From contig JAKALA010000042.1 in assembly GCA_021813325.1 (NCBI GenBank), positions 1 through 36,739 on the forward strand: a DNA stretch of 36,739 bases, read 5' to 3'. Below the pieces are notes generated by a model. That model was not told the DNA's origin, did no database searches, and saw only the letters and a program-made list of their open reading frames with translations. Positions within the stretch are counted from its first letter, which is position 1. The number at the start of each line of letters is the position of its first letter. This DNA is from a bacterium (lineage in GTDB: Bacteria > Verrucomicrobiota > Verrucomicrobiia > Limisphaerales > UBA11358). Below are positions 13,281 to 36,739 of the stretch, piece by piece. Made by a program: the position numbers and the translations under genes.

Positions 13281-14333
13281 TTACTTCTGCTTGGCTTTGC
13301 CCCCCGGGGTCGGCACCGTGGCAACAGTCTGCAGGATGCGACCCGCGATCTTGTAGGGATCGCCTTGAGAATTCGGCCGGCGATCTTCCAAATAGCCTTT
13401 GTAACCGTTGTCCACGAAGCTGTGCGGGACGCGGACAGAAGCGCCGCGGTTGGCCACCCCGTAGTTGAACTTGTCGATGGACTGGGTTTCATGCAGGCCG
13501 GTGAGGCGCAGATGATTGTCTGGACCATAGACCGCGATGTGTTCGTTCTTGTATTTGTCAAACGCCCCCATGAGGGCTTCAAAATAATCCTTGCCGCCGA
13601 CTTCGCGCATGTAGGTGGTGGAGAAGTTGGAATGCATGCCCGAACCGTTCCAGTCCACATCCTTGCCGAGCGGCTTGCAATGGAAGTTCACGTCCACCTC
13701 ATATTTTTCGCAGAGGCGCATGAGCAGATAGCGAGCGACCCAGACTTGGTCGGCGGCGTTCTTGGAGCCTTTGCCGAAGATCTGGAACTCCCACTGGCCC
13801 TTGGCGACTTCGGCGTTGATGCCTTCGTGGTTGATGCCGGCGGCCAGGCAGAGTTCAAGGTGCTTGTCCACGATTTCGCGGGCAATGGAACCGACGGCAT
13901 CATAGCCGACCCCCGTGTAGTAAAGGCCTTGTGGATAGGGGTAATTGTTCGGGCCGCAGGGGAAGCCAAGCGGACGACCATTTTTGTAGAGAAAATATTC
14001 CTGCTCGAAGCCGAACCAGGCACCGGGATCATCCGGAATAGTCGCACGCGCGTTGCTCGGATGCGGGGTCTTCTTGTCGGGCATGTAAACCTCGCACATG
14101 ACGAGCGCACAATTTTCGCCGCGGGCGGCATCGGGGTAAATCGCGACGGGCTTGAGCATGCAGTCAGAGCTGCGGCCTTCAGCCTGACGGGTGGAACTGC
14201 CGTCGAAACCCCACCAGGGGAGTTCGCTCAATTTGGGGAACGATTTAAATTCTTTAATTTGAGTTTTGCCGCGAAGATTGGCGACGGGTTCATAGCCGTC
14301 CAGCCAGAGGTATTCGAGTATGTATTTGGCCAT
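13281..14333 (-). CDS. glnII: Type II glutamine synthetase
   Basis: ATP-dependent amidation of glutamate to glutamine. At 350 residues, with WWGFDGSSTRQAEGRSSD near residue 40, LKPVAIYPDAARG, FGFEQEYFLY, GQWEFQIF, WNGSGMHSNFST and NRGASVRVP, this is the short eukaryote-type GSII, not the roughly 470-residue GSI. The metal ligand Glu residues are in FGFEQEYF and GINAEVAKGQWEFQ; the VNRGxSVRxP-like phosphate-binding segment is intact. GSII lacks the adenylylation Tyr of GSI, so control is expected at transcription; a candidate sigma-54 promoter lies 80-95 nt upstream. A little downstream of glnK-amtB on the same strand. Confidence 0.94.
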   Translation of the reverse strand: MAKYILEYLWLDGYEPVANLRGKTQIKEFKSFPKLSELPWWGFDGSSTRQAEGRSSDCMLKPVAIYPDAARGENCALVMCEVYMPDKKTPHPSNARATIPDDPGAWFGFEQEYFLYKNGRPLGFPCGPNNYPYPQGLYYTGVGYDAVGSIAREIVDKHLELCLAAGINHEGINAEVAKGQWEFQIFGKGSKNAADQVWVARYLLMRLCEKYEVDVNFHCKPLGKDVDWNGSGMHSNFSTTYMREVGGKDYFEALMGAFDKYKNEHIAVYGPDNHLRLTGLHETQSIDKFNYGVANRGASVRVPHSFVDNGYKGYLEDRRPNSQGDPYKIAGRILQTVATVPTPGGKAKQK

Positions 14334-14411
14334 GCGAATGGTGTGTGTGATTAATTTGGTTATTCCGATTCAACCGAATCAAAGTTCAGCTGATCGTCGG
14401 TGGAAAAGTTT

Positions 14412-14429
14412 GAGCAGGGACGATGCCAG
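14412..14429 (-). promoter_or_regulatory. Candidate sigma-54 promoter of glnII
   Basis: Minus strand reads CTGGCATCGTCCCTGCTC. The invariant GG and GC are 10 nt apart as in the -24/-12 consensus TGGCACG-N4-TTGC; the match is GG plus C-A upstream and TGC downstream, with mismatches at the sixth, seventh and twelfth positions. It lies 79-96 nt before the glnII ATG. The rest of 14334-14644 holds nothing I recognise. Confidence 0.5.
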
Positions 14430-14644
14430 ACCGCAAGATTTTTATGGCCGAATCCGGCGGAAAACTGTTTGGACACATGCCGACAGGCGGTTCCCGGCCC
14501 CCGGTAAAAAAACGGAACCCCGTTCCATTCCCACAACCCGGCTGGCGTTCTGTTTGGATTTGGCCACCGTGAATAAAATTCCACTCCCACCTTGGCATTG
14601 CCGCTTTGCATGGACCGGCCAATGCGTCATATTGGTCCGGCAAC

Positions 14645-15061
14645 ATGCTGAAAGTCAAAGACACCCTTCGCGCCACGGTCAACCTCTCGTTCGATGGCCG
14701 GGTTTTCAAAACCTACCACGGGCCGAATGCCGCGGAACGATTTGAAAATGAAGTGCGGGTGTTGAAACATCTGGAGGCCCATGGCTGCCCGTTTGTGCCC
14801 CGTTTGCTGGAAGCCGACCGCGACAAGCTGCGCATCGTCACCACCAACTGCGGCGGACGGGTCGAACAGTTGGATGATAAACGCCGCTTGGAGCTTTTTG
14901 CCGAACTGGAAAAATACGGCGTGCGCCACGATGATCCCGACGTCCGCAACGTCACCTACCGTTTTTCCGACGGACGCTTTTGTATGATCGATTTTGAATT
15001 TGCCACCATCCTGCCCGGCGCGGGCAGCAAACCCACCCCCAATGAAGCCCCCAAAACCTAG
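14645..15061 (+). CDS. Minimal protein-kinase-fold protein
   Basis: Only 138 residues, yet the kinase landmarks appear in order: a beta-3-like Lys in DGRVFKTY, an alpha-C-like Glu in FENEVRVLKHL, a hinge-like RIVTTNCGG, the catalytic loop RHDDPDVRNV (H-x-D-x4-N spacing), and DFE in FCMIDFEFAT replacing DFG as the Mg-binding Asp. It resembles the compact Bud32/RIO or lipopolysaccharide-kinase type with nearly no C-lobe. Protein, sugar or small-molecule substrates are all possible. ATG 14645 gives a start at MLKVKDTLRA; the open frame reaches 14606. The stop overlaps the following PP2C phosphatase by 20 nt, which suggests cotranslation and an opposing function. Confidence 0.6.
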   Translation: MLKVKDTLRATVNLSFDGRVFKTYHGPNAAERFENEVRVLKHLEAHGCPFVPRLLEADRDKLRIVTTNCGGRVEQLDDKRRLELFAELEKYGVRHDDPDVRNVTYRFSDGRFCMIDFEFATILPGAGSKPTPNEAPKT

Positions 15062-15887
15062 CAAACCCACAAATTCACCAGCGCTAAAATGGTCCGGCTG
15101 GACGGACATCGGCAGAGTTCGAAAAAACAACGAAGACGCGTTCCTCGGGCTGCGTTTCGATGCCCATGAAATACACCGGCTGGGGAAATTCGGCCAGGCG
15201 TCAACGGCGACGCACGACTTTACGTTTGCGGTTTGCGATGGCATGGGCGGAGCCAAGGCCGGCGAATTCGCCAGTCAGATTGCCGTGGAAAAAATCACCT
15301 CGCTCCTGCCCCGCGCCTTCCAGCAAACGGCCACCGGCATGCAAGCCGGATTCCAAGACATCCTCACCGAGCTTTATACGCAAATCCACCGGGCGTTGGT
15401 GTATCTCGGCGGCTCCTACGATGAATGCCACGGCATGCAAACCACCATGAGCCTCTGCTGGTTCACGCCGGGCTGGATGTATTTTGGCCACGTCGGCGAC
15501 AGCCGGATTTACCATTTGCCGAAGGGGAAGAATACCATCAAGCAGCTCACGGAAGATGACACGCATGTCGGCTGGCTGCTTCGCAACGGTCAGATCAACG
15601 AATACCAAGCCCGCACTCATCCGCGACGCAATGTGCTGCAAAAGGCTTTGGGCGGCACCAACCAGTTTGTCGATCCCCAAGTCGGCGCGGTGAATTACGA
15701 AAAGGGCGACCTGTTTTTGATCTGCTCCGATGGTTTGACCGAGGGGCTTTACGATCACTACACCGTGGACCTGCTGCGCGACACCGCCAAACACCAAGAC
15801 GCCGCCGCCGCCAAATCACTGGTCGAAGCCGCCGTGCGAAATGACGGACGCGACAACTCCACCGCCGTGGTGGTGCAAATCTTATAA
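15042..15887 (+). CDS. PP2C-family serine/threonine phosphatase
   Basis: Soluble Mn/Mg-dependent protein phosphatase of about 281 residues. Motifs: SGWTDIGRVRKNNEDAF, FAVCDGMGGAKAGEFAS, TMSLCWFTPGWMYFGHVGDSRIY broken here into TMSLCW and GHVGDSRIY, FLICSDGLTEGLYD and GRDNSTAVVVQIL; the metal-binding Asp residues are in NNED, CDGMGG, CSDG and GRDN. The GHVGDSRIYHLPKGKN segment and ARTHPRRNVLQKALGG match bacterial Stp/PrpC-like enzymes. ATG 15042 (MKPPKPS) overlaps the kinase stop; the frame is open to 14994. The Pro/Lys-rich N-terminus before residue 17 is probably disordered. Confidence 0.9.
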   Translation: MKPPKPSKPTNSPALKWSGWTDIGRVRKNNEDAFLGLRFDAHEIHRLGKFGQASTATHDFTFAVCDGMGGAKAGEFASQIAVEKITSLLPRAFQQTATGMQAGFQDILTELYTQIHRALVYLGGSYDECHGMQTTMSLCWFTPGWMYFGHVGDSRIYHLPKGKNTIKQLTEDDTHVGWLLRNGQINEYQARTHPRRNVLQKALGGTNQFVDPQVGAVNYEKGDLFLICSDGLTEGLYDHYTVDLLRDTAKHQDAAAAKSLVEAAVRNDGRDNSTAVVVQIL

Positions 15888-17418: not shown

Positions 17419-17790
<372 letters not shown>

Positions 17791-19207: not shown

Positions 19208-20560
19208 TTATTCAAAATCGATCCATGTCACCAACTCACCCAACGCCGACCGGCCATCGTGCCGCCAGGTCAACGGCGGATTCTGCATCTGGCCGAGCGG
19301 ACAAATTCGGGCGGCGCCCCAACGGGCAAAATGCAGGGCCAGCTCGGCGGTTTTATCTGGAGATGCAGCGATTCCAACGGTCGAAACCAGCCCATGAATT
19401 TCATCCACGCCTTCCATGACCGCGCTTAAATCCGGAACCGGCTTCACGTAGATAAACCGGTTCAATGGGGAAACGCGAAAACGCACGTCATGCTCAAAGA
19501 CCACCGTCCAAGCCGTGGAATTGGAACTCGCCCATAATTTCAGATCACCACGATGTGCGGCAAGCGCCTCATACGTTGCCCGCCGAGAAGTGATGGCGGC
19601 TGACTCCTCCACCGAAATGGCTCCACGCGGTTCCCCAGATTCACGCTGCGCCAGTTCCACGGCGAGTTTTTGCGCAAAAACATCGGATTCCACCAGGCCG
19701 CGTTCTTCCACATAAAACACATGCGGCGACAAACAACCGTTCTGATCCCACGCGATGACATCATCCGCCGCTTGAGCAACCGTTTGGGCAACGGTTTCCT
19801 CCCGCAAGGCTTCGCGTGTAATCAGGCCAAAACTGACTTTCTGGCCGTAGCCGATGAACCGAGTTTTCACCGGCAGTTGCGCGCGGATCGACGCGATGGT
19901 TTCGTTGCTGCCGGTGGCCGTCACACAGTCCGCCTCGGAAAACAAGGCGGACTCCAGGTTTGCCATGCCGCCACGCCATTCCGCGAGTTCCAGGCACGAG
20001 CCCAACTTGTGATCCAGTTCGTAAATGGAATGGGCAAACAATCGCGGCATGAATGACGCGTTGCTGGCGCATTTCATGAACTGGGCGGAACGCGTCAGCA
20101 GCCCCAGCGTCAGGCTCAGCATGGCCGGATTGGGCAAATTGCCGGCGGCGATGTGAACCAGTAATTTCGGGCCGCAAGCCAGCCCGCCGTTGATAAATCG
20201 GTCCAACCGCTCCGCATGACCAAGCTCCTGTTCCAAAAGCGATTTAAAGTTCTCCGGCGTAAAGCGACGAAAAAACTGATCCAATCCTTTGGCCAGAACC
20301 GCCTTTGAAAATCCAGTCCTGGCCGGACCGCATTCCAGCGCCAACTGGCGAAAATGGTTTTCGGGACGAAGCCATGCGGAGCCGACTTCGCAAAGCAGAT
20401 CCACAAGCTCGCCCGTTTTCCGTGGCAGCAAAAACTTCTCCCGATTCTTTTTCAAAACCGTGCCCGCCTCCGCAATCATCGGTGCAGAAAGCGTGGCTTC
20501 CGGTGGCAGATCGGCGAGAAAGTAGTTGGGCAGATTCAGGTCCATGAGATCTTCAGGCAT
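19208..20560 (-). CDS. LuxC-like acyl-CoA/fatty acid reductase
   Basis: NADPH-dependent reduction of an activated fatty acyl group to an aldehyde, aldehyde dehydrogenase superfamily. In 450 residues: LLVHIAAGNLPNPAMLSLTLG, the nucleotide-binding ATGSNETIASIR, GQKVSFGLI and the catalytic Cys in WDQNGCLSPHVFYVEE (residue 276 from the first Met), with PLNRFIYVKPV and ICPLGQMQNPPLTWRHDG near the end, all as in LuxC. Its ATG at 20560 overlaps the luxE stop (ATGCCTGA), so the pair is coupled; ATG 20545 is an alternative start. luxA, luxB and luxD are absent here. Confidence 0.87.
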   Translation of the reverse strand: MPEDLMDLNLPNYFLADLPPEATLSAPMIAEAGTVLKKNREKFLLPRKTGELVDLLCEVGSAWLRPENHFRQLALECGPARTGFSKAVLAKGLDQFFRRFTPENFKSLLEQELGHAERLDRFINGGLACGPKLLVHIAAGNLPNPAMLSLTLGLLTRSAQFMKCASNASFMPRLFAHSIYELDHKLGSCLELAEWRGGMANLESALFSEADCVTATGSNETIASIRAQLPVKTRFIGYGQKVSFGLITREALREETVAQTVAQAADDVIAWDQNGCLSPHVFYVEERGLVESDVFAQKLAVELAQRESGEPRGAISVEESAAITSRRATYEALAAHRGDLKLWASSNSTAWTVVFEHDVRFRVSPLNRFIYVKPVPDLSAVMEGVDEIHGLVSTVGIAASPDKTAELALHFARWGAARICPLGQMQNPPLTWRHDGRSALGELVTWIDFE

Positions 20561-21686
20561 TCATCAACGAACAACCGCGTGGCTCCGCCAGTGAGGCCCG
20601 GCCCACCAGCTCAAACCCGCTGCCGCGCCGTATTCCCAAATCTTCCGTCTGGAGGGCGGCCACGGAAAACACATTGGCCAGATCAAAAATCCGGATCAAG
20701 CCGGTTTGGCCATCGGCCACCTCGCGTCCGGTTTCGGGCGATATGATTTGAGCCCGCACCCACAGCGGAAAACCGAAAACACCGTTGGAACCAGCATAGG
20801 CTTGCGAACTCAACTCGCTCATGCCGTATTCGCAGATGATGTTTTCCGGCGAGACGCCGAGGCGCTCCGTGATGAGCGCGTGCAATTCCGCCTTGGGCAA
20901 GGAACGCGAGCGATTCTTATAGCCGCCAGTCTCCATCACTTGTGAACCGGCCGGGAGTTTCAACTTCAAATTCCGTTCCGCCAGATGATCCAGCAGATGA
21001 ACAAAGGAAAAGGCCGTGCCCAAAATCAATCGCGGATGGCCGGTTGCTGATTGCGAATTATCCAAAACTGAAATGGCTGCTTCAAAATCCAGCGTCCAAG
21101 CGCCGTCCTTTTCAATCAGGCCAACAAACGGGGCACGGCTTGCCAGGACACTCGCTCCACCGGACTTTTGCCACACCGTTTGAAACATGTGAACCAATGA
21201 TGAGTTTGGGGCCTGCTCCGGCGGCGGCGTCAGGCAAATCAATTGGAAATGCGAAGCTGGAGATTGGAAATGTGACCAGAACCACGTCCCCAGCGAGGCT
21301 TCGTAAACTGCCAACGATTCCGGGCCATGAAAATGCCGGCTCGGCTTCTGTTCCGTCGTTCCGCTGGAATGAAAAACCGCCGTTCGTTCCTCCGCTGGAA
21401 TACTCGTCAGCTCCAGCTCTTTAAACAAACTCGTCGGCACAGCGGGAATTTGCTGCCAGTGATTGACGGCTTTCGGCGTCAGTCCCCGCGCCGCGCAAAT
21501 TTTTCGATAGCCAGGGTTGTGCTGGAATTGAAGGGCAAAGAGTTCCAATGCCAACGAATCAAAATTCCGAAAAGGCAAATTGGACAAATCCTCATTTGCG
21601 GGTGAGAGATGCCATTGTGACACCCGGCATTCGGAAATAATCATTTCGCGAAAGCGGGAGGCAAACTGAGAAAGCGCTGTAATCAT
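20553..21686 (-). CDS. LuxE-like acyl-protein synthetase
   Basis: ATP-dependent acyl activation, ANL/PaaK superfamily; in lux operons LuxE passes the acyl group to LuxC. The 377 residues carry the phosphate-binding loop FHSSGTTEQKPSRHF (about residues 105-119), METGGYKNRSRSLPK, ICEYGMSELSSQAY and GLIRIFDLANVFSVAALQTEDLG; the YGMSEL segment is the usual adenylate motif. I chose ATG 21686; a GTG at 21719 would add eleven residues. It precedes and overlaps luxC, and follows the SDR gene by about 100 nt, so both could share a promoter with it or have their own. Confidence 0.85.
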   Translation of the reverse strand: MITALSQFASRFREMIISECRVSQWHLSPANEDLSNLPFRNFDSLALELFALQFQHNPGYRKICAARGLTPKAVNHWQQIPAVPTSLFKELELTSIPAEERTAVFHSSGTTEQKPSRHFHGPESLAVYEASLGTWFWSHFQSPASHFQLICLTPPPEQAPNSSLVHMFQTVWQKSGGASVLASRAPFVGLIEKDGAWTLDFEAAISVLDNSQSATGHPRLILGTAFSFVHLLDHLAERNLKLKLPAGSQVMETGGYKNRSRSLPKAELHALITERLGVSPENIICEYGMSELSSQAYAGSNGVFGFPLWVRAQIISPETGREVADGQTGLIRIFDLANVFSVAALQTEDLGIRRGSGFELVGRASLAEPRGCSLMNA

Positions 21687-21788
21687 GCGGTATTTGTTTG
21701 TCGGCTGGTTTTCCGCCACAGCCGGAGAAGAATAATAGCTGCAACTCGGCCCTTCGCAAGCACCGTTCCAGCATTGTTCCGTTTTGTA

Positions 21789-24958: not shown

Positions 24959-27900
24959 TTACTGTTGCAACAGCCGGTAAAACACGTTGGGATGCGTGGC
25001 GTCAATCGGCAGGCTGATGACGCCGTTGGTCTGGGTGTAAATCAGCAACGGCTGCCACGCCGCCGGGTTGGCGAGGTTCGTGTTGAACAGAATCTGATAA
25101 TTGGCACCCAGCTTGCCAAACAGGTTCAACTGCCGCTGACCATTCGCATACAAAGCTTGCAATAGCGGCTCACCCTGCACCACCGCAACCGTGCCCGGAT
25201 GAAGAATGAAGTTTTGATAAAACGCGCCGCCCGGCTTTTGGGCCACCAGATTGGTCAACGTCAGCGGAATAAAAGCCGACAGCGCGTTGGTGTGCGCCGT
25301 GAAATGCAACTGGAAAACCTGCTGTGTGCCGGACAGGAACTGCCCGCTGACCGTCCCGAGGGCAATGAGCAGGTTGGTCCGCTGATCGGTCAAGGTCGCC
25401 GAGGCAATTTGCGGCGCTCTGGCCAGCAGACTCCAATTGGTCAGCCAGTATTCATTTACCGGCACCGAGAGCAGCAAATTGGTAACGCCGGCATTGGATG
25501 CGAGGAACACAGGCAGGCTCGCGCTTTGTCCGCCTTCGAGGTTGGTCGAACCGATGCCCAGCTCCAGATAATCCAGCACCACCACGGCAAAAGACTGGGT
25601 GGTGGACAATGGCGGATTGCCATTATCAGCCACGATCAAGGTGAAATGGTTGGTGGTATCCGCCAAAGCCCGCGTGGGAGACCAGCGGAAGATGCAGCTA
25701 TTGGTGGTGACCAGCAGTTCCGCATGGCTGTCGGCGCCGGGAGCGAGGCTGTAGCTCAACAGATCGCCGTTCGGATCGGTGGCATCCACCCGGAACGAGA
25801 CCGTGCTGTCCGGCGAAACCACGAAGTCGTTAATCGGCGGAACCACGGGGGCGACATTCGTCGTATCATGCACCCAGCTCATGGTCACCAGGTTTGTGCT
25901 GGTGTTGCCGGCCAGATCCTGAATTCCTGCCAGGTTCAAAGTGAGCTGGTAGGTGCCCAGGGGCGCGGTATAAGCCGACAAATTGCCAAGAACAAATGTG
26001 TTGCTGGCATAGTAACTTAACGTCGGCGTAAAGGCATTGCTCCCGTTGAAGGTGATTACAAAGTTGGTCGCCGCAAGCGTGCTGGGATTGATGGGCTTTG
26101 AGAACGTCACCGGTATGCTGCCCACCGCCGAATACAAAGGCGTGGAGACCGGCTGAAAGACCGCGCTGGGCGGCACAATGTCGATGAACAAATTGAAATA
26201 GGCCGGCGACGACACGTTCCCGGCAATGTCCACCGCCGTTGCCCGCAGCCGGTGCTGACCTTGAATGGTAAAGTTCAACGCCGCGCTGAAATTGGTTCCG
26301 TTCACGATGGCGGCACCGAGATCGGTGTCCGAGGTCTGATCATACACCCGCACGGTGAGATTGGTGGTGCCCACCTTGCCAGACAAGGTCACCGCCGAGC
26401 TGGCGGTAATGCCGTCCGTGCTGGAAATACCGAGGTCCGGAGTGATCGCCAGTTGCGTGGGCGCATCCGGCGTGGTCAGGATCATCGTCCAGCTTTCGTT
26501 GGTGGAGCCGGAACCGGCGTTGCCTGCCAGGTCACTCAATCCGGCGGCATTCACCGTCAAAGTGTAAGTTCCTGCCAAGCCTTGCACCCAGCTGATGTTC
26601 CCAATGATGAAATTGGTCGGACTAGTTTGGGTGACGGTCGCCTGGCTGGTGATCAAGTTGGCACCGCCATCGCGTGTCAGGGTGAAGTCATGATAATCAA
26701 AGGTGGCCGGATCGATCGGTCCGGAGAAACCGATGCTCAGAGACTGCACCACGATGTTGCGCGGATTGGTGGTCACCGGTTGCAAGGTCGTGATCTTGGG
26801 ACTGGTGGTGAGCATGGTCCAGTTCACGGACTGACTGCCGGTTCCGGTCAGCCCGCCAGTATCTTGAACATTGGCAGCATTGACGGTCAGGACATAATTT
26901 CCTTCGGCACCGGTCAATTCCCCCAGCCCGCTGATCACATACGTGCTGCCCGACTGCTGCGCGACCGTTACCGCACTGCTAATCAAATTGGCTCCGCCGT
27001 TCACCGTCAAATTGAGCGCGTGGTAATCAAACGTGGAAGCATTGATCAGCTTGGACAAGGTCACCGTCACGCTCGTCACCGGCTGGTTGCGCGGATTGGG
27101 CGTGATGGCAGAAATGCTTTGGACCACGGGCGCCACATTGCCTTTGGACCACTGCGTGGCAGCAGACACGTCGCCCGCCGGATTGCCCCAGAGGTCCAAG
27201 ATATTCGCACCGCTCACGGTGAGTTGATAATTCCCATCCGCAGCCGTGTAGTTTTGCAATCCCGTGAGCGAATAGGTGGCATTCGAGACAAGCACCAGAC
27301 TGAGGCTGCTGCCATCGGTGATCAAATTCGCCCCGCCATTGCGCGTAAGACTGACCGCATGGAAATCAAAGCTGGAAAGATCGATCGGTTCGGAGAACAC
27401 CACATTCACTGCCGAAACCGCGCCGCTCTGCACAAACGGCGTCACCGGTCCAACTTGTTCGATGGCCGGCGGAACCGTGTTGGTGGAATGATAAACCAAC
27501 GTATAACTGCCCGAGCCCGCCCAGTCAAAAAGGTGAACCAAATCCTCGCGGATGGCCCCCGTGATCGCCGCCGGGAACGTGCGGTCCGTGGTCCAGGCAT
27601 TATTGGTCAAGGACAGCACCTTGCCATCGGAACGGACGACACTGGCCAGGATGAAGCCTGCGCCCGGATCCGGCAATTGAATGTAATTCCAACCATTGCT
27701 GACCGTGGTGGTCAGATGCACTTGAAGATGTCCCGCCCCCGCCGGACCATCGAAGACGCCGTTGGTAACGACATTGACCGGCGCCGTGCTGCCATCGCTG
27801 AGATAGAGGATATCCGGCATATTTTGCGGATCAGGGATGTCGTTCACCAGAAAATCCGGCACCGCATCATCCGTGTCGCGATTGGCCAGCACCCGATGGG

Positions 27901-30900
27901 TCAGCTCATGAATTTCGACGCTATTGATCAACGAAGTGTTGGTGCTGCCGAGATCATCCACATGCTCGAACGTGGCGTTGAAGGAAACAAACTTGCCCTG
28001 CAATGATGACAACATTTCCCAAGTAACCACCTTGGCGTTGCCCGGCGCAATGTCACCCAGCTTCGCTTCGAGGGAGGGACTGACGGGCTGGTCACCGATC
28101 ATCGTGCCGATGATGCTGAAATCGATGAGCAGGCCCTTCTCGTTATCTACAATCTTCGGCTGGCCCGAGGTGATTTGGAAATTATGCGCGCTGCCCGCCC
28201 CCACATTTTTCACGATCAATCCCAATGCAAACGGCTCCGAAGGTTCGATCTGCGGCGTGAACGGATCATCCGCGTAAACATCGCGTTGCTGGAAGTAAAC
28301 CAAATTTAGCTTCGCATCGGGATAGACCGTGATGGGCGACGACAACAGCGGCACGGTCACAAGCTGGCCGCCGTCGTTATACGAAAGCGTGCCGCCGATT
28401 TGATAGGTAGCCGGCGCATTGGGAGCGGCGTCGGTCGTCGGAATAAACGTGTAAACCGCCGAGCCGGTGCCGCCACCATTCAGCGTGCCGGTGCCGTCCA
28501 CCGCCGACATGCCGGTGACCACCGGTCCTTCGGTCAGGAACTTGTCCGAGGCCGCGCCATTCGTGGCGTCGCGGAAATCCAGGTTCACTTGAATATCATT
28601 GATGGCGGTGGATCCGCCGTTGTCAATTTCCAGCGTGCCCTTGAACACGGTGCGCGTCATGACCACGCTTTGCTCGATGCGCAGACGGACATGCGCGCAC
28701 ACGCCCTGCGTGGTGTTCAGCGGTTTCATGCCCGTCACCAGCTTGGAATATTGCGGGGCCATGAACATCCCCACATTTTCCGCCAGGGATTTGGATTTAG
28801 TCGTCCCGGGCGGCGGCTTTAGCGAAGACGTGGTGTTTCCGCTGCAATCCGTTCCGGCGATGTAATAGGCCGTGATCACCGGCGCGCTGTTCACGTAATA
28901 ACTGCCGGTGGGCAGAATCGGCCAAAGCCCGAAATCAGGACTACCCGCACCGGCGCTGGCGGATGGCAACGCCGGCAACGGATAATTCTTCAGCAGATAA
29001 CAAATGCATTCCGGCAAGGCCGGCAAAAGACTGCTGGCCGCCCCGGCCGCGCCGCCCAGAAGCGCGCCGCACGCCCCGGCAATGGCCGCCTGCTGGCAGG
29101 GATTCAAATCCGCGCCCACGCACGAAAGATAAGCCGCAATGGTGTCGCAGCTCCACGACACGAGGTTTTCGGTGCCGGCCAGCGTCTTCAAGCTTTGCAG
29201 ACAATCCCAGGCATTCTTGCCGGTGCAAATCACTGAAAGGTCAACCGAACGTTGCTCCAACTTGTTATTGGGACCACAGACGTAGTAATACTCCACACCC
29301 AATGGCAAGCTAGGCAAACATTCACTGACGGACAAATTGCATCCATCATTCCCTAGGATCACGCGGTCGCCCTTTTTGGCGGCGGCTTTCACATAAGCCC
29401 GCGCGGCCGCCGTGGAACGCAGTTGAACCGTGACCGGAATGGTCACCGAAGCTTTGGCGGGAATTTGATCCACGACATCCACCAACGGCTGCACCAGATA
29501 ATCCGGGTCATTTGGCACTGTGACTTTGACGCCGTGGGCCGCGATCAAGCCTTCATTGGTCAGCTTGATTTCAAACTGGGAGACCTGGCCCGGCGTCACG
29601 ACCAGCAACACTTTGGGCTGCTCCACCACCACGTTGGGCACCGGCACCTCGGTTTCAAACACCGTTTCCAAAACCACCTTGTAATTGTCCTGCACCTCGG
29701 TGGGCACCACGCTCCACTGGTAGGAAACCAACTGCCGCGGCAGGAAGGCTTCATTGGTCGAAATCGTCCCGGCCACCACGGTCATGGTGCCGCGGTATTG
29801 ATTATGTTTATCCGCCGAGGCGTCCACCGTGTAGGGGCCTTCGGGCAGGGCGGAGAAATAGACGATGCCGTTGGCATCGGTGTTAGTGCTGGTGACGACG
29901 TGTCCATCAAACGCGTCGCGCACCGTCACCACGGCGTTGGTCACCTTGGGGCCGCCGGTGACGTAGTAGGTGTAATCATCCGTGGTGGTGACCTGCAAAT
30001 CGCCTGTGGCATCGGACATCGCGCGGAATTGGTAGGCGATGTTGACGCCGATGTTTTGATTGGCGATGGCAATGTTGCCCGAGTAAATGCCCAAGGTCAT
30101 GCCCAACGCGGGATTCAACACCAAGGTCACCGTCGCCTTGCCGCCGGCGGGAATGGATGGGATCACTGCGGGCGAACCCAGGCTCATCCAGGACAGCGAA
30201 GGAATTTGCACCGTCAAATCCCCGCTGCTGGCGCCGCCGTTGTTGATGACATCAAACGAAACCAGCGTTTGCTGTCCCAGCGTCATACCACGATTCAAGT
30301 AGCCCGGATTCACACTGAGCTGCGCCACCAGCGGCACCACCGAGACATTGAACGGCACCGTCACCTGCGCGCCTTCGCTCGAGGTGAAGGCCGGCGTGAA
30401 TTTCCCGTGGGCCGACTGGCTCAACGCGCTCATCAAAGTGTAGGCCACGGTCAACGTTCCTCCCGCCGGCAGCGTTTGGTTGGTGAAATCAAATTGCGCC
30501 GACAGCAGACCCTGCAAATCGGGCACCACCGCCGCCAACCCGGTGAGCGCATGGTCGGTAAGATTGCTCAGAACAATCTGGCCCGTGGACGCCACATTGG
30601 GCAGCAGTTGCAGCGTAACCGCCCCCGGCGACGCCTGCATGCCCAGCAGAGTGAAGTTCATCTGTGGCGGCACTTGCGCGACATACGGATAATCCGCGCC
30701 GACCGTATAGTCGCCCGCCTCCGTGCTCAACGGCTGGAAGGTGTAAGTGAAATTGCCCTGCGCATCCGCCACGACATTGAAATAGCGGTGGGCATCATTC
30801 ACCTGCACATCCAATTTCGCCGTGCCGCCCGGAACCGCACCGTTGTTGGCGGTGTAATAGACGCGGCCGGAAAACACCACGGGCGTGCCTTGAGGCGCCA

Positions 30901-33900
30901 CGGCAGGCGTCACATTCGTGACCACGGCGCTGTAAATCGGATTCAACGTGATTGATTGCGGTGAAATCAGCGTGTTGTTTTTTTTATCCAGTTCCACCAC
31001 ATCGTTGTGGCCGTCGGCCACCACTTCCAGCCAGTAGGTTCCGGGAACATTGGGAACATAAAAACTGAGCTGATTCGTGTAATTGGCGCCAATCGGAAGC
31101 GGCGTGGCATTCGTCACAATGCCCACCAGCGTGGCGTTCTGGCCCAAATTATCCGTGGCCAGGTAAACATAATCATACCAGAGATTATTGGTCGGCTGTC
31201 CCGCACCGTAATTTCCTTCCAGCCAGTTCACCGTAATTTTGGAACCCGTCAGCGCATTGGTCGGTCCGCTGATGGCAATGGGCACCAGGTCGGGTTGATA
31301 CACATCGGAAATCGTCAGCGGAATCGCGGCCGAATTAAAACCAGTGGCCGAAGCCGACAGCGTCACTGATTCCGGTCCGGTCTGTTTGCCGTCCAGAATT
31401 CCCGACACCGTAAACGTGGCGCTCGCCTGGTTCAGCGGCAGATTGACGGTTGCGGGCAAACTGATAATGCCAGTCGGGGCGGCACTGAGGTTCACGGTCA
31501 GCGCATTCGTCGGCACCGTGTTTCGCGTAATCGTCACCAGCACGTTGCTGCCTTTGGAAAGCGTGGGGTTCGGCACGCTCAAGGAAAGCGTCGGGCCATT
31601 GATGTCCAGCACCTGTAATGTGCTTGAAGCTGCGCCCGCAGCCAGGGCTATGCCTCCCGGACTCAGTGGCGTGGCGGTAAGACTGGCAATTTGCGTCCCG
31701 GTAGAAAGGTTGTCATTCCCCACCGCGATATTGAACGAAACCGAAGCCGTGCCGGCGGGAATCGTTACCGTATTCGGCAAACTCACCACCGGGCTGTTCG
31801 CCACAGTGAGTTTCACCGTCTGGGCGCTGCTGGTCACCGGCGAACGCGTCACCGTGCCTTGGGCGGCGGAGTTTCCGGCGCCTTTATTGACAGTCGGGAC
31901 CGACAATGCCAGGTCAAGCTGCACAGTATCCACATTCAAAACATCCATGATGGCCGAAACGGAATTAAAGCCGGCGGCAATCGCCGTCACCCGGGCCCGG
32001 CGCGTGTCGCTGATGACATGATCCGGAACCGGCGTCACGGTAAACGTGGCGCTGGCCTGCCCGGCGGGAATGATCACGCTGGCCGGCACAGTCAGGGCGC
32101 TCACGGTATCACTGACCAGATTCACAGTTAAAGGCGTGCTCCAGTTGACGCTGCGTGTGATGGTTCCAATCACCACGCCTGAACCGGCGTTTTCATTCAC
32201 GGCATTGGTGTTAAAGGTCAGCGCCAAAACGGCAAGGTCATCGAGTTGAATGGTCAAAGGAGCGGAAGCTGTGGCATAGCCCGCAGCCGCGGCCGATACC
32301 GTTTCCGCTAGGCTGATGCCTGCAACGTGATGGTCGATCACGCTGAGGTAAAAACTCACCGCGCTCTGTCCAGCGGGAATGATCACCGACGAAGGCAGAC
32401 TCAGATTGGTGGTTGTCGCTGTGGACAGAGCAACATTAAGCGCCGCTGAAATATCCCCGCCGCGAACGAGAGTGGCGAGCACCGCGTTGGTTCCGGCACT
32501 TTCTGAAACAGAGCTTTGGCTCAGAGCGAGCTGCAGGGTCGGAGCAATCGTCATGGCCTGCGTGGAGACAAGGCTGTTGTTCGTGTAGGAAGGCTCGTAA
32601 AACGCCTGGCCGGCGTTGGCCTGAACCACAATCCACTGCTGGCCGGAGCTGAACGGCGGCAGTGTTACGGTTTGCGTCACATTGGTGGACTGTCCGGCGG
32701 CCAGATCATTGGTCAGCACAAACGAGCCCAGCAACTGCCCGGCGCCCGCCGCGTTGGAACTGGAGAGAAACACACGATCATACCAGGGACTGACCGCCGG
32801 TCCCGTGCCCGCGTTGACGTCCGTCCACGAGATTTGAACAGCCTCATGAGCGGCGGCGGAAACTGGAATCACCAGGTTGGTGACCAACAAATCGGGATAC
32901 GGCGTCAGCGTGGAATTCACGGTCAGCGAATTGGTGTTGTTGCTTTCGCCCGTGCCGCTCGAATTGTATTCAAACACGTTGTTCCAACTGTCGGCTTGAA
33001 TCGTGATTTGCAGATTTCCCACGCCGGCGGCTCCGTCCGGCAACGTGAACGCGTATTGCCGGCTGGCGGATTGGCCGTTCGTAAGCGGTGACGCGGCCGC
33101 GTCATAGTTCAAATCAGCATTTACCAGCGTTTGGAGGGTGCCCAGGTTCACCACCGTGATGCGGTCGCGGAACAGCTTGCTCACGGTGCCGGAACCGCTG
33201 TTCGTATCACTCCAAGTGATGCCAACGACGCTGCCGGATTTTACAACCGCGTTGGTCACCGCCAAGCCGGCGACTTGCAGATCCGGATAGGCCGCCAACG
33301 TGTTGGTGACGGTCATCACAGCGGTATTGTTCGTCAGAGCCGAACCGGTTCCATTCGCTTCATACTGATTTTGATAATAATTCGCCGTGACCGACACCTG
33401 AATCGGCCCGGCGCCCGAAGCGCCGTTGGGAGTGGCAAACGAATAATTACGCGGAATGAAACCGCCGCTGGCAATATTACCGTAGATGGAGGGATTGTAA
33501 TAAACGGTGGTATCCAACAATTTCTCGCCGGTGTTGAGGTTGCTGACCACCACGCGGTCATACCAGTAGGTAAACGTATCGCCAACGCCCGAGTTGGTGT
33601 CGGTCCAGGCAATCGCCAGAGGCGAACCGGAAATGAAATTACCAGTTACCGCCAGTTGCGAAACTTGCAAATCAGGCGCGGCAAACGTGGTAAAAGTGTA
33701 ATCCCCGGAAAGTGTTTCATTCCCGGCGGCATCCTTGGAATGAACGCGGTAATGATATGTGGTGAGCGGGGCCAAATTATACACCGTGACGCCATGGGCG
33801 AGCACGCGTTGAGCATTCAAACTGGAAAACGCCCCATAAGCCGTGGTTGGCCCATATTCGACTTGAGAGGTGGACGCTTCGTCGGAATTCCAAGTGACGA

Positions 33901-36739
33901 CTGCGGTCAGCACCGCCGGGCTGGCTGAAATATTGCTCACCACCGGGAACGTCGCATCCACGAACAGACTGAACGGATTGGTTGCGACAATGGTATAGCC
34001 ATTGGTTCCTTGCGCGCCGGCAATCCACACCTGGTTCACACCATCCATCCCGGTGGACAACGTGATCGGCGGCGTCACATAAGTATCGTTCGGCATAGTG
34101 GTGCTGGCCCAGTGGCCGTTCGTCGTCACGGTCGGCTGCAGCGCAGCCGGAGTATTGGTCAGCGATACCGCCGGCGAAATATTTGTCTGCATGGACCGGT
34201 CAAAGACAAATGTCAGCGTCAGATTGGTGGTTGCCGGCACCGGCGCGGATTTGTTGGCATACGCGTTGATCAATTGCGGCACAATGGAAGTGGTTTTGTA
34301 AACCGCCACATAAAGCAGATTGGTATAGTCCGTAGTCTGGAAAGTTTTACTGTAATTGGGAATGGTCGAAATGACGCCGTTGCTCAGAGTGATCGATTGG
34401 AAATTGTATTCGTAGGGCGGCGTCAAAACCGTCAACGGCGCGACGATGTTCATTGTTTGACCGTTGGTATAAATGCCAGCTCCAGCCACGGAAGCAATTC
34501 CGCCGGGTGACGTTGCCGTGTTGACCCAGTGTAATGGATTCGCCTCGAGGTAATTGGCCACATAGGCGTGATTCGTATAAACCACGGTTTGCAAGGTCGG
34601 GCTGGTACTCAACACCACGCCACTCTCCGTCCAGTTGGAAAATGCGTAGCCGTAATTCGGCGTCGCAATCAACGTATTTGTGGAACTGTAAAAATTGGTT
34701 CCCGCTCCCACAATAACACCGGCGCCAGCCGGATAATTGGAGGCGGTGATGGCAAACGCGGGCAAGGAAAAATTGGCCACCAGTTGCCGGCTGTGTTGAA
34801 TGAAGAAAGTGTAAGTGCTGTTGGTGGTTTGCAACACACTGTTTTCCGTCCAGCCCGCAAAATAATAAGGCAAGGTGCTGGTGTTTGCCACCGCACTCAC
34901 TGTCACATAGCTGCCATCCGGAAAACTGCCATCGCCCGTGGCCACACCGGCGCCGACAGGATTAACCGATGTCACCACGGCATCAAATATGCCCGAGAAC
35001 GCCGACAGCGTGAAATTGACGGACTGGTTGGCACCACTGACTACCGTGGTCTGATTGGCAACGGGATTGTAGCCGTGGGTCGGCAAATCCTGCAAACCGA
35101 CCATCCACGTGCCGTTGGAAACAGACAACGCGTAGTTACCATTCGCGTCCGTCTTGGTGCTGAGAAAATAGCTGCCTGAAGAATTGGTCGTGTAGGCAAA
35201 AACAGTGATGTTGGTAACGCCGTGGTTGGCGCCGTCTTTAACCAAGCCAGTAATTTGCGCGTCAAACATGGCGTTGGTGACGACTTTTAATTGCAGACTC
35301 GTCGAGTTGTATAGCGTCTGCCACGCCAAACCGGAACTCAACGAGGGTAAATTCAACGCACCAAAAACTCCCGCATAAGAACCATAATTGATCAGCGTCA
35401 GAGTATCTCCGTTTTGCGGCACGTAGCCGCCCAACAAATTGATGCCCAATATGCCGTCAAAGTTCACATTCCCTCTCATCGTCGCGCGCCCCAAATTATT
35501 TGCCGCACTGACGCCAAACTGCATGGTGGCACCAGATTGAGCATAACCATTCGAACTATTATTGAAGTTCACCGTCCCCTGCAAAATATTCACCAATCCG
35601 CTGTTGTTGAACGGCAGGTTCAGCGTCGTCGTCCCGCTGCCGCTCGTCTTCCGAAACTCCCCGTAATTGTAAAAGCGTTCCCCGCTGTTGTAATAATAAT
35701 CAAAATTCTGGTCGCTCTGGCAGTCCCACAACGCCCCTGGCTCATTATATACCGACCCCAGCCACGAACTCCCGTTCCACGCACACCGCATGCCCCCGCC
35801 GCTCCACGTCACCACCCCGTAATTCGTAAACGCATTGAGCAGCGTCTTGTAGTTCCCGCTCACGTTCAACACCCCGTTCGTCCCCACCGTCAGCGCCCCG
35901 CCCAATTCCCCGCCGCTCCAGTTCAACACCGCGCCGTTGCTGACCAACATCGAGGCGTTCAGGCCGCCGCCCGTCCAATTCACCTGTGAACCTGTCAGTA
36001 ATTGCAACGAACCCGCCGCTCCATTGCCCAACGTCACGTTCCCATTGATGACATAGTTTCCGTTCAACCCCGCACCACTCATCAAATTCGTAATCGTGCC
36101 GCCTTGAAAATTCGTGCCCAACACCAGCGTCCCCCCGTTCAACCCCAAGTTCGCCAGCACATCATCCACCAACACCAGCGTTCCACCCGTAAACCGGTTC
36201 GTCCCCGAGCCCCCAAATACCGGCACCACCGGGTTCGTGTAGCTGAACGTCCCGCCATTCAAGTTCATCACCGCTCCCGCCCCCGTCGTCGTCGCCCCTG
36301 CCATCACCCCGCCGCTGTTGAAGTTCACCGTCCCCTGCAACACATTCACCAACCCGCTGTTGTTGAACGGTAAATTCATGCTCGTAATCCCGCTCCCGCT
36401 CGTCTTCCGAAACTCCCCGTAATTGTAAAAGCGTTCCCCGCTGTTGTAGTAGTAATCAAAATACTGGTCGCTCTGGCAGTCCCACAATGCCCCTGGCTCA
36501 TTATAGACCGACCCCAGCCACGAACTCCCGTTCCACGCACACCGCATGCCCCCGCCGCTCCACGTCACCACCCCGTAATTCGTCAACGCATTGTAGAGCG
36601 TCTTGTAACTCCCGCTCACGTTCACCACCCCGTTCGTCCCCACCGTCAGCGCCCCCCCCAAATCTCCCCCGCTCCAGTTCAGGATCGCACTATTACTCAC
36701 CAACATTGAAGCGCTCATGCCGCCACCGGTCCAATTTAC
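24959..36739 (-). CDS. Giant multidomain secreted protein (5' end outside window)
   Basis: More than 3,900 codons without a stop; the frame is still open at the window edge (VNWTGGG before the Met at 36718), so the true start and any signal peptide are missing. In order from the visible N-terminal side: Gly/Asn-rich beta-helix-like repeats (to about 35300); a CnaB-like domain (ITGLVKDGANHGVTNITVFA, near 35250); InlB/divergent-repeat-like units (YFAGWTENS); fibronectin III (near 33800); CARDB domains (PDLQV/PDLLV starts near 33670, 33290, 32905, 31290); four Calx-beta-like repeats (about 32560-31310); another CnaB-like unit (near 29900); a Cys-rich island (about 29350-28960); Big/Ig-like repeats with GGANLI (about 27460-26460); a cadherin-like and a cohesin-like region; and the tail FYRLLQQ. 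No enzyme or anchor motif is visible. Probably a surface or adhesion protein. Confidence 0.85.
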   Translation of the reverse strand, partial: VNWTGGGMSASMLVSNSAILNWSGGDLGGALTVGTNGVVNVSGSYKTLYNALTNYGVVTWSGGGMRCAWNGSSWLGSVYNEPGALWDCQSDQYFDYYYNSGERFYNYGEFRKTSGSGITSMNLPFNNSGLVNVLQGTVNFNSGGVMAGATTTGAGAVMNLNGGTFSYTNPVVPVFGGSGTNRFTGGTLVLVDDVLANLGLNGGTLVLGTNFQGGTITNLMSGAGLNGNYVINGNVTLGNGAAGSLQLLTGSQVNWTGGGLNASMLVSNGAVLNWSGGELGGALTVGTNGVLNVSGNYKTLLNAFTNYGVVTWSGGGMRCAWNGSSWLGSVYNEPGALWDCQSDQNFDYYYNSGERFYNYGEFRKTSGSGTTTLNLPFNNSGLVNILQGTVNFNNSSNGYAQSGATMQFGVSAANNLGRATMRGNVNFDGILGINLLGGYVPQNGDTLTLINYGSYAGVFGALNLPSLSSGLAWQTLYNSTSLQLKVVTNAMFDAQITGLVKDGANHGVTNITVFAYTTNSSGSYFLSTKTDANGNYALSVSNGTWMVGLQDLPTHGYNPVANQTTVVSGANQSVNFTLSAFSGIFDAVVTSVNPVGAGVATGDGSFPDGSYVTVSAVANTSTLPYYFAGWTENSVLQTTNSTYTFFIQHSRQLVANFSLPAFAITASNYPAGAGVIVGAGTNFYSSTNTLIATPNYGYAFSNWTESGVVLSTSPTLQTVVYTNHAYVANYLEANPLHWVNTATSPGGIASVAGAGIYTNGQTMNIVAPLTVLTPPYEYNFQSITLSNGVISTIPNYSKTFQTTDYTNLLYVAVYKTTSIVPQLINAYANKSAPVPATTNLTLTFVFDRSMQTNISPAVSLTNTPAALQPTVTTNGHWASTTMPNDTYVTPPITLSTGMDGVNQVWIAGAQGTNGYTIVATNPFSLFVDATFPVVSNISASPAVLTAVVTWNSDEASTSQVEYGPTTAYGAFSSLNAQRVLAHGVTVYNLAPLTTYHYRVHSKDAAGNETLSGDYTFTTFAAPDLQVSQLAVTGNFISGSPLAIAWTDTNSGVGDTFTYWYDRVVVSNLNTGEKLLDTTVYYNPSIYGNIASGGFIPRNYSFATPNGASGAGPIQVSVTANYYQNQYEANGTGSALTNNTAVMTVTNTLAAYPDLQVAGLAVTNAVVKSGSVVGITWSDTNSGSGTVSKLFRDRITVVNLGTLQTLVNADLNYDAAASPLTNGQSASRQYAFTLPDGAAGVGNLQITIQADSWNNVFEYNSSGTGESNNTNSLTVNSTLTPYPDLLVTNLVIPVSAAAHEAVQISWTDVNAGTGPAVSPWYDRVFLSSSNAAGAGQLLGSFVLTNDLAAGQSTNVTQTVTLPPFSSGQQWIVVQANAGQAFYEPSYTNNSLVSTQAMTIAPTLQLALSQSSVSESAGTNAVLATLVRGGDISAALNVALSTATTTNLSLPSSVIIPAGQSAVSFYLSVIDHHVAGISLAETVSAAAAGYATASAPLTIQLDDLAVLALTFNTNAVNENAGSGVVIGTITRSVNWSTPLTVNLVSDTVSALTVPASVIIPAGQASATFTVTPVPDHVISDTRRARVTAIAAGFNSVSAIMDVLNVDTVQLDLALSVPTVNKGAGNSAAQGTVTRSPVTSSAQTVKLTVANSPVVSLPNTVTIPAGTASVSFNIAVGNDNLSTGTQIASLTATPLSPGGIALAAGAASSTLQVLDINGPTLSLSVPNPTLSKGSNVLVTITRNTVPTNALTVNLSAAPTGIISLPATVNLPLNQASATFTVSGILDGKQTGPESVTLSASATGFNSAAIPLTISDVYQPDLVPIAISGPTNALTGSKITVNWLEGNYGAGQPTNNLWYDYVYLATDNLGQNATLVGIVTNATPLPIGANYTNQLSFYVPNVPGTYWLEVVADGHNDVVELDKKNNTLISPQSITLNPIYSAVVTNVTPAVAPQGTPVVFSGRVYYTANNGAVPGGTAKLDVQVNDAHRYFNVVADAQGNFTYTFQPLSTEAGDYTVGADYPYVAQVPPQMNFTLLGMQASPGAVTLQLLPNVASTGQIVLSNLTDHALTGLAAVVPDLQGLLSAQFDFTNQTLPAGGTLTVAYTLMSALSQSAHGKFTPAFTSSEGAQVTVPFNVSVVPLVAQLSVNPGYLNRGMTLGQQTLVSFDVINNGGASSGDLTVQIPSLSWMSLGSPAVIPSIPAGGKATVTLVLNPALGMTLGIYSGNIAIANQNIGVNIAYQFRAMSDATGDLQVTTTDDYTYYVTGGPKVTNAVVTVRDAFDGHVVTSTNTDANGIVYFSALPEGPYTVDASADKHNQYRGTMTVVAGTISTNEAFLPRQLVSYQWSVVPTEVQDNYKVVLETVFETEVPVPNVVVEQPKVLLVVTPGQVSQFEIKLTNEGLIAAHGVKVTVPNDPDYLVQPLVDVVDQIPAKASVTIPVTVQLRSTAAARAYVKAAAKKGDRVILGNDGCNLSVSECLPSLPLGVEYYYVCGPNNKLEQRSVDLSVICTGKNAWDCLQSLKTLAGTENLVSWSCDTIAAYLSCVGADLNPCQQAAIAGACGALLGGAAGAASSLLPALPECICYLLKNYPLPALPSASAGAGSPDFGLWPILPTGSYYVNSAPVITAYYIAGTDCSGNTTSSLKPPPGTTKSKSLAENVGMFMAPQYSKLVTGMKPLNTTQGVCAHVRLRIEQSVVMTRTVFKGTLEIDNGGSTAINDIQVNLDFRDATNGAASDKFLTEGPVVTGMSAVDGTGTLNGGGTGSAVYTFIPTTDAAPNAPATYQIGGTLSYNDGGQLVTVPLLSSPITVYPDAKLNLVYFQQRDVYADDPFTPQIEPSEPFALGLIVKNVGAGSAHNFQITSGQPKIVDNEKGLLIDFSIIGTMIGDQPVSPSLEAKLGDIAPGNAKVVTWEMLSSLQGKFVSFNATFEHVDDLGSTNTSLINSVEIHELTHRVLANRDTDDAVPDFLVNDIPDPQNMPDILYLSDGSTAPVNVVTNGVFDGPAGAGHLQVHLTTTVSNGWNYIQLPDPGAGFILASVVRSDGKVLSLTNNAWTTDRTFPAAITGAIREDLVHLFDWAGSGSYTLVYHSTNTVPPAIEQVGPVTPFVQSGAVSAVNVVFSEPIDLSSFDFHAVSLTRNGGANLITDGSSLSLVLVSNATYSLTGLQNYTAADGNYQLTVSGANILDLWGNPAGDVSAATQWSKGNVAPVVQSISAITPNPRNQPVTSVTVTLSKLINASTFDYHALNLTVNGGANLISSAVTVAQQSGSTYVISGLGELTGAEGNYVLTVNAANVQDTGGLTGTGSQSVNWTMLTTSPKITTLQPVTTNPRNIVVQSLSIGFSGPIDPATFDYHDFTLTRDGGANLITSQATVTQTSPTNFIIGNISWVQGLAGTYTLTVNAAGLSDLAGNAGSGSTNESWTMILTTPDAPTQLAITPDLGISSTDGITASSAVTLSGKVGTTNLTVRVYDQTSDTDLGAAIVNGTNFSAALNFTIQGQHRLRATAVDIAGNVSSPAYFNLFIDIVPPSAVFQPVSTPLYSAVGSIPVTFSKPINPSTLAATNFVITFNGSNAFTPTLSYYASNTFVLGNLSAYTAPLGTYQLTLNLAGIQDLAGNTSTNLVTMSWVHDTTNVAPVVPPINDFVVSPDSTVSFRVDATDPNGDLLSYSLAPGADSHAELLVTTNSCIFRWSPTRALADTTNHFTLIVADNGNPPLSTTQSFAVVVLDYLELGIGSTNLEGGQSASLPVFLASNAGVTNLLLSVPVNEYWLTNWSLLARAPQIASATLTDQRTNLLIALGTVSGQFLSGTQQVFQLHFTAHTNALSAFIPLTLTNLVAQKPGGAFYQNFILHPGTVAVVQGEPLLQALYANGQRQLNLFGKLGANYQILFNTNLANPAAWQPLLIYTQTNGVISLPIDATHPNVFYRLLQQ
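35562..35983 (-). repeat. Tandem repeat copy inside the giant gene (inner copy)
   Basis: This 422-bp block aligns without gaps to 36318-36739, 756 bp (252 codons) away. Over 333 compared positions (from 35651) I count about 31 mismatches, and only about six in the first 190. Codes for NWSGG, LGGALTVGTNGV, TNYGVVTWSGGGMRCAWNGS, NEPGALWDCQSDQ, DYYYNSGERFYNYGEFRK. Confidence 0.85.
36318..36739 (-). repeat. Tandem repeat copy inside the giant gene (outer copy)
   Basis: Partner of the block at 35562-35983, cut by the window edge; further copies may lie upstream of the gene portion seen here. Between the two, 35984-36317 encodes the rest of the unit (NLMSGAGLNGNYVINGNVTL, TGGTLVLVDDVLANLG). Confidence 0.85.

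Follow-up and report, generated by a model that had tools for sequence, protein, structure and literature searches.

At the locus described here, a gene for a type II glutamine synthetase (GSII) lies divergent from a short open reading frame for a kinase-like protein, which we call KIN and which overlaps the gene of a PP2C-type phosphatase; genes for an ammonium transporter and a PII protein follow on the opposite strand. The whole stretch of DNA analysed, 36,739 nucleotides from a bacterium of the phylum Verrucomicrobiota, is referred to as the window, and the features below are given in its coordinates.

13281-14333, minus strand: type II (eukaryote-like) glutamine synthetase GSII, 350 aa, divergent from KIN; proposed substrate
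14334-14644, no strand: divergent spacer of 311 bp, common to GSII and KIN
14645-15061, plus strand: KIN, minimal kinase-like protein of 138 aa, with a conserved core (residues 1-123) and a variable tail (124-138)
15042-15061, plus strand: 20-nt overlap of the KIN 3' end with the PP2C 5' end
15042-15887, plus strand: PP2C-type Ser/Thr phosphatase, 281 aa, PF13672
15946-17385, minus strand: ammonium transporter AmtB, convergent with PP2C
17419-17757, minus strand: PII protein GlnK, with the T-loop YRGS49EY51T

Elsewhere on the minus strand of the window, overlapping genes for a LuxC-like acyl-CoA reductase and a LuxE-like acyl-protein synthetase occupy positions 19208-21719, with no adjoining luciferase gene noticed, and an open reading frame of 3919 aa (24959-36718) probably encodes a giant extracellular protein, whose domains include CARDB, Big and InlB repeats.

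The KIN reading frame is a real gene, because it has homologues in many genera (47-87% identity) that share its start methionine and its invariant catalytic residues. An alternative TTG start is present upstream of the ATG at 14645, and in an alignment of 110 homologues, reaching down to about 60% identity with the window protein, every member begins at the equivalent of that ATG. Most nucleotide differences between KIN and its nearest homologues are found in the third position of codons (for example 14/8/58). The original prediction for this locus, of a 138-residue protein keeping H-x-D-x4-N, DFE and the Lys/Glu pair in order, was borne out: the motifs occur as K22, E36, H95-x-D97-x4-N102 and D116-F-E118, and K22, E36, H95, D97, N102, D116 and E118, with both catalytic Asp residues among them, are invariant in 110 of the 110 homologues. 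Three cysteines, C48, C69 and C113, are also conserved (in 110, 109 and 109 of the 110, respectively). That is not common in the core of a cytosolic kinase, and the cysteines may have a redox or metal function.

Within the phylum, the family is confined almost entirely to one class. The genome of the window carries a single copy of KIN, and homologues were found in 79 of 387 genomes of the phylum, all from the class of the window except for one weak match; a scan of a genome collection gave 322 related loci. Titles of the 80 loci listed by a scan with the KIN pattern nearly all name Verrucomicrobiota, and the small remainder are MAGs labelled otherwise. The one weak match in other classes of the phylum lies within an APH-like protein fused to a methyltransferase, a 456-aa protein (L130:2633-4000) that carries a methyltransferase domain and, at its C terminus, an APH/RIO-like domain with weak similarity to KIN. 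No KIN was found on plasmids, yet GSII has matches in 125 plasmid records, most of them from rhizobia.

Structure prediction gave the small protein a confident two-lobed kinase fold from which the lower C-lobe is missing (AlphaFold2, alignment of 81 sequences, pLDDT 93.1, pTM 0.85). The model runs from a beta-rich N-lobe, which contains helix C, through one long helix and the catalytic loop to the DFE hairpin, and there it ends, the conserved core stopping at residue 123, five residues past DFE. The activation segment up to APE and helices F-I are absent from both sequence and model, as is a glycine-rich GxGxxG loop, the beta1-beta2 turn reading D-T-L-R. In ordinary kinases the activation segment and helices F-I serve to bind the substrate, and since KIN ends right after DFE it lacks the half of the C-lobe that normally holds the substrate and offers no platform of its own for one. 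To our knowledge, no active kinase domain is as short as this.

The nearest solved folds are those of ArkI, Bud32 and RIO2, at about 18-27% identity. Foldseek matched the model to ArkI (E 9e-7), Bud32 (5e-6) and Rio2 (1e-5), as well as to many ePKs, and VIA alignment returned Z scores of 12.7 to Rio2 and 12.2 to ArkI across 112-118 residues, the ArkI superposition being 2.9 A over 112 residues. These relatives differ from KIN in having a longer C-lobe, and in partners and substrates, which are tRNA, KEOPS and the ribosome. Sequence libraries place KIN loosely in an APH/Bud32/Kdo group. Its sole Pfam match above cut-off is APH (PF01636; 32.8 bits, gathering score 23.2), a profile that 81 of 81 homologues match at E<0.01 in alignments that stop near position 198-199 of 239, so that the substrate-binding C-lobe helices at the profile's end are absent. 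The score against the Bud32 equivalog TIGR03724 (23.8 bits) lies far below its cut-off of 125, and searching the PDB with a sequence profile gave no usable relative. On the predicted fold, together with the Lys/Glu pair, the HxD...N loop and the D-F-x Asp, KIN is a member of the PKL superfamily; with neither C-lobe helices F-I nor a GxGxxG loop, it falls outside the Hanks-type/ePK group.

The partner phosphatase is intact. It scores 64.5 against a cut-off of 24 bits for PF13672, and 190.2 against the Stp1/IreP equivalog NF033484, short of that model's cut-off of 230. Its metal-binding motifs (NED30-32, DGMGG66-70, GD152-153, DG230-231 and DN271-272) are complete, and D32, D66, D153, D230 and D271 are invariant in 108 of 108 homologues. 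A survey of other genomes found PP2C directly downstream of KIN on the same strand at 108 of the first 109 homologous loci. Junctions among these comprise 45 four-nucleotide ATGA overlaps, 13 other overlaps, 40 spacers and nine fusions, with no start assigned at one locus. The 20-nt overlap of the kinase stop with the PP2C start had been predicted correctly; its length is not conserved among homologous loci. Fused KIN-PP2C reading frames arise in separate lineages, four further cases being found in one family (f3), and an AlphaFold2 model of one fusion is confident in both domains, with a short linker of low confidence between them. KIN and PP2C are thus functionally coupled, as the idea of a compact kinase/PP2C pair had held, and the natural fusions strengthen the case for joint action; fusion and overlap together argue that the two act on one and the same thing. 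Their enzymatic activities would presumably be opposed.

In two genera (g35 and g45; eight loci) KIN immediately follows mgtE, in many cases abutting that gene or overlapping its end, while in the mgtE-linked genomes PP2C is still divergent to GSII at six of the seven GSII loci examined and was not seen at the seventh. Glutamine synthetase is a magnesium-dependent enzyme and mgtE a gene for a magnesium transporter. The close structural relation to Bud32, whose relatives may work mainly as ATPases, the lack of a lower C-lobe for substrates, and the fusion or overlap with PP2C would also fit a KIN that binds ATP/ADP, or hydrolyses ATP, as a regulatory subunit that renders the phosphatase energy-responsive, in the manner of Bud32 in KEOPS, with PP2C acting on GSII that another kinase has phosphorylated. 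We regard this as rather unlikely, given that the phosphotransfer residues, HxD Asp97 included, are invariant throughout the 110 homologues and that KIN is retained apart from PP2C in the mgtE-linked genera.

The pair is closely associated with GSII. The window GSII is related to Streptomyces GlnII (4bax) and to the yeast and plant enzymes in the PDB, and is 76-78% identical to rhizobial GSII. It lies within 1.7 kb of KIN at 82 of 96 testable loci and is divergent from it at 81 of the 96; in family f3, KIN, PP2C and GSII form a co-directional run, and one genome of that family has two copies, each accompanied by a separate GSII, of which one is only 48% identical to the window GSII. Among 236 genomes of the class, 112 have both KIN and GSII, 120 have neither, three have GSII only and one has KIN only, counts to be read with the caveat that linked genes may drop out together from incomplete assemblies. 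The two genes thus occur together in 112 of the 116 genomes with either, and only four of the 236 are discordant. In 21 of the 112 the genes lie on different contigs or at a distance of more than 6 kb, so that neither adjacency alone nor joint assembly gaps account for the pattern, and presence and absence switch jointly within about a dozen families. Sigma-54 sites were found in nine of 88 GSII-KIN spacers and not in that of the window. Rather than a pair inserted between nitrogen genes, as first supposed, KIN and PP2C are a fixed partner of GSII: they are present where it is and usually stand beside it.

This tie to GSII also bears on what KIN might modify. With ArkI as the top Foldseek match and APH as the only Pfam family above cut-off, KIN could in principle act on nucleic acid, as ArkI does in the 2'-phosphorylation of tRNA, or on a small metabolite like APH, PP2C being a mere neighbour. 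That is very unlikely: PP2C is a phosphoprotein phosphatase, co-conserved and fused with KIN, the APH substrate pocket in the C-lobe is absent, and the association with GSII would go unaccounted for.

Other nitrogen genes distribute differently. GlnE, the adenylyltransferase and adenylyl-removing enzyme of GSI, acts on a tyrosine and is the textbook case of post-translational control of glutamine synthetase. It was detected in nine of 113 KIN genomes compared with 75 of 123 KIN-less genomes (Fisher p 1e-18; as with all Fisher p-values for KIN associations here, shared ancestry is ignored), and GSI in 12 of 113 compared with 64 of 123. GlnE tracks GSI, being present in 69 of the 76 genomes with a GSI over cut-off. 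The genome of the window has no GSI match, and GlnE appears in it only as a short 28.9-bit match inside GlnD. GlnD itself, the PII uridylyltransferase, is nearly universal in the class, so that PII already has its usual modifier.

PII was nonetheless a candidate target. The GlnK-AmtB genes adjoin the pair at many loci (AmtB at 37 of 60 testable ones), and YRGS49EY, the motif phosphorylated in cyanobacteria, is found in 45 of 46 KIN-linked PII proteins. The cyanobacterial PP2C-type phosphatase PphA acts on PII Ser49; the corresponding kinase escaped identification for a long time, and the present candidate is SpkB (PMC10651672). By this analogy the pair would modify GlnK at Ser49 and reach glutamine synthetase through PII alone. 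PII does not track KIN: Ser49 is kept in 32 of 33 KIN-less genomes, no less than in the linked proteins, and PII is present in 20 of 25 KIN-less genomes. Retention of Ser49 without KIN and the near universality of GlnD, on which the proposal was downgraded, argue against PII as the target, while co-occurrence points to GSII, and at the f3-family loci examined GSII adjoins the pair and AmtB-GlnK does not. We therefore consider modification of PII unlikely, if the least so of the alternatives weighed here. The AmtB neighbours, together with mgtE neighbours in some genera, might also suggest that the pair has several nitrogen or magnesium targets (AmtB, MgtE and GSII), with GSII only one of them or a co-inherited regulon gene. 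Linkage to AmtB or mgtE fails across lineages where the presence of GSII holds, which makes this improbable.

The reading we prefer, at a probability of roughly one half, is that KIN is a reduced but active Ser/Thr kinase of the RIO/Bud32/APH type and forms with PP2C a dedicated switch for reversible phosphorylation of GSII. KIN would phosphorylate GSII, likely lowering its activity under plentiful nitrogen, and PP2C would take the phosphate off again. Because KIN stops right after DFE and has no platform of its own, substrate binding would probably fall to PP2C or to GSII itself, which is a two-ring oligomer. The gene, the kinase fold with its full catalytic residues, the intact phosphatase, the coupling of the two and their near-perfect tie to GSII are supported by computation, and it is from co-occurrence that we infer that KIN phosphorylates GSII directly and that PP2C reverses this; catalysis by KIN, the phosphosite, the direction of the effect and the signal received are likewise predicted parts of the mechanism. 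The sole standout among lineage-specific sites considered as a KIN-specific phosphosite was GSII Ser285, beside the conserved HET motif, which is invariant in the 105 GSII proteins of KIN genomes and mostly absent in rhizobia. It also occurs in GSII from KIN-less genomes and in yeast glutamine synthetase and so does not discriminate; it was rejected, and no GSII site can be named with confidence.

Several known systems share features with the proposed switch. GlnE, too, is a dedicated modifier with two opposed activities that tracks one type of glutamine synthetase across genomes, but it is a nucleotidyltransferase acting on GSI, whereas the pair described here combines a kinase fold with a phosphatase and is tied to GSII. 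AceK, the isocitrate dehydrogenase kinase/phosphatase (PMC6591243), similarly places one central metabolic enzyme under dedicated control by phosphorylation and dephosphorylation; it is one large bifunctional protein, unlike the core of about 125 aa and the separate PP2C fold found here, and the enzyme proposed as target differs. PphA likewise involves a PP2C-type phosphatase in nitrogen control, with PII as its target, whereas here the co-occurring gene is GSII and PII keeps Ser49 without KIN. In rhizobia, GstI is encoded by a small gene divergent from GSII in the same position as KIN (in Rhizobium leguminosarum, L188:2378-2569), but it is annotated as an inhibitor of GSII translation, is not a kinase and has no PP2C.

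The closest parallels in gene arrangement are PrkC/PrpC, PknB/PstP and Stk1/Stp1, co-transcribed pairs of adjacent kinase and PP2C genes (PMC6213207). Their kinases are Hanks-type, membrane-bound proteins with sensor domains and many targets, whereas KIN appears soluble, has no lower C-lobe and is tied to GSII. Proteins that combine PP2C with Pkinase domains are also known (PMC12088040). Since such pairs and fusions have been described, the original prediction that no system of this form was on record was too broad: the general kinase/PP2C form is already known, and the novelty lies in the truncated kinase family and in its link to GSII.

Among the four glutamine synthetase isoenzymes of Rhodopseudomonas, a recent study found adenylylation in GSI only, with none of GSII, and proposed that modification of this sort is conserved just in GSIs (PMC10100968). 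Our search of the open-access literature found no description of covalent control of bacterial GSII, and neither phosphorylation of GSII nor nitrogen control of this kind in Verrucomicrobiota. More tentatively than the switch itself, we suggest that a kinase of about 125 residues without a substrate-binding lobe may borrow the platform of its target and, together with PP2C, may constitute the first known dedicated phosphorylation switch for bacterial GSII, one that would replace GSI/GlnE adenylylation across this class of Verrucomicrobiota. The co-occurrence of KIN and GSII makes covalent control of bacterial GSII directly testable, and KIN offers a good test of how minimal a kinase fold can be for catalysis, and of substrate recognition by such a core.
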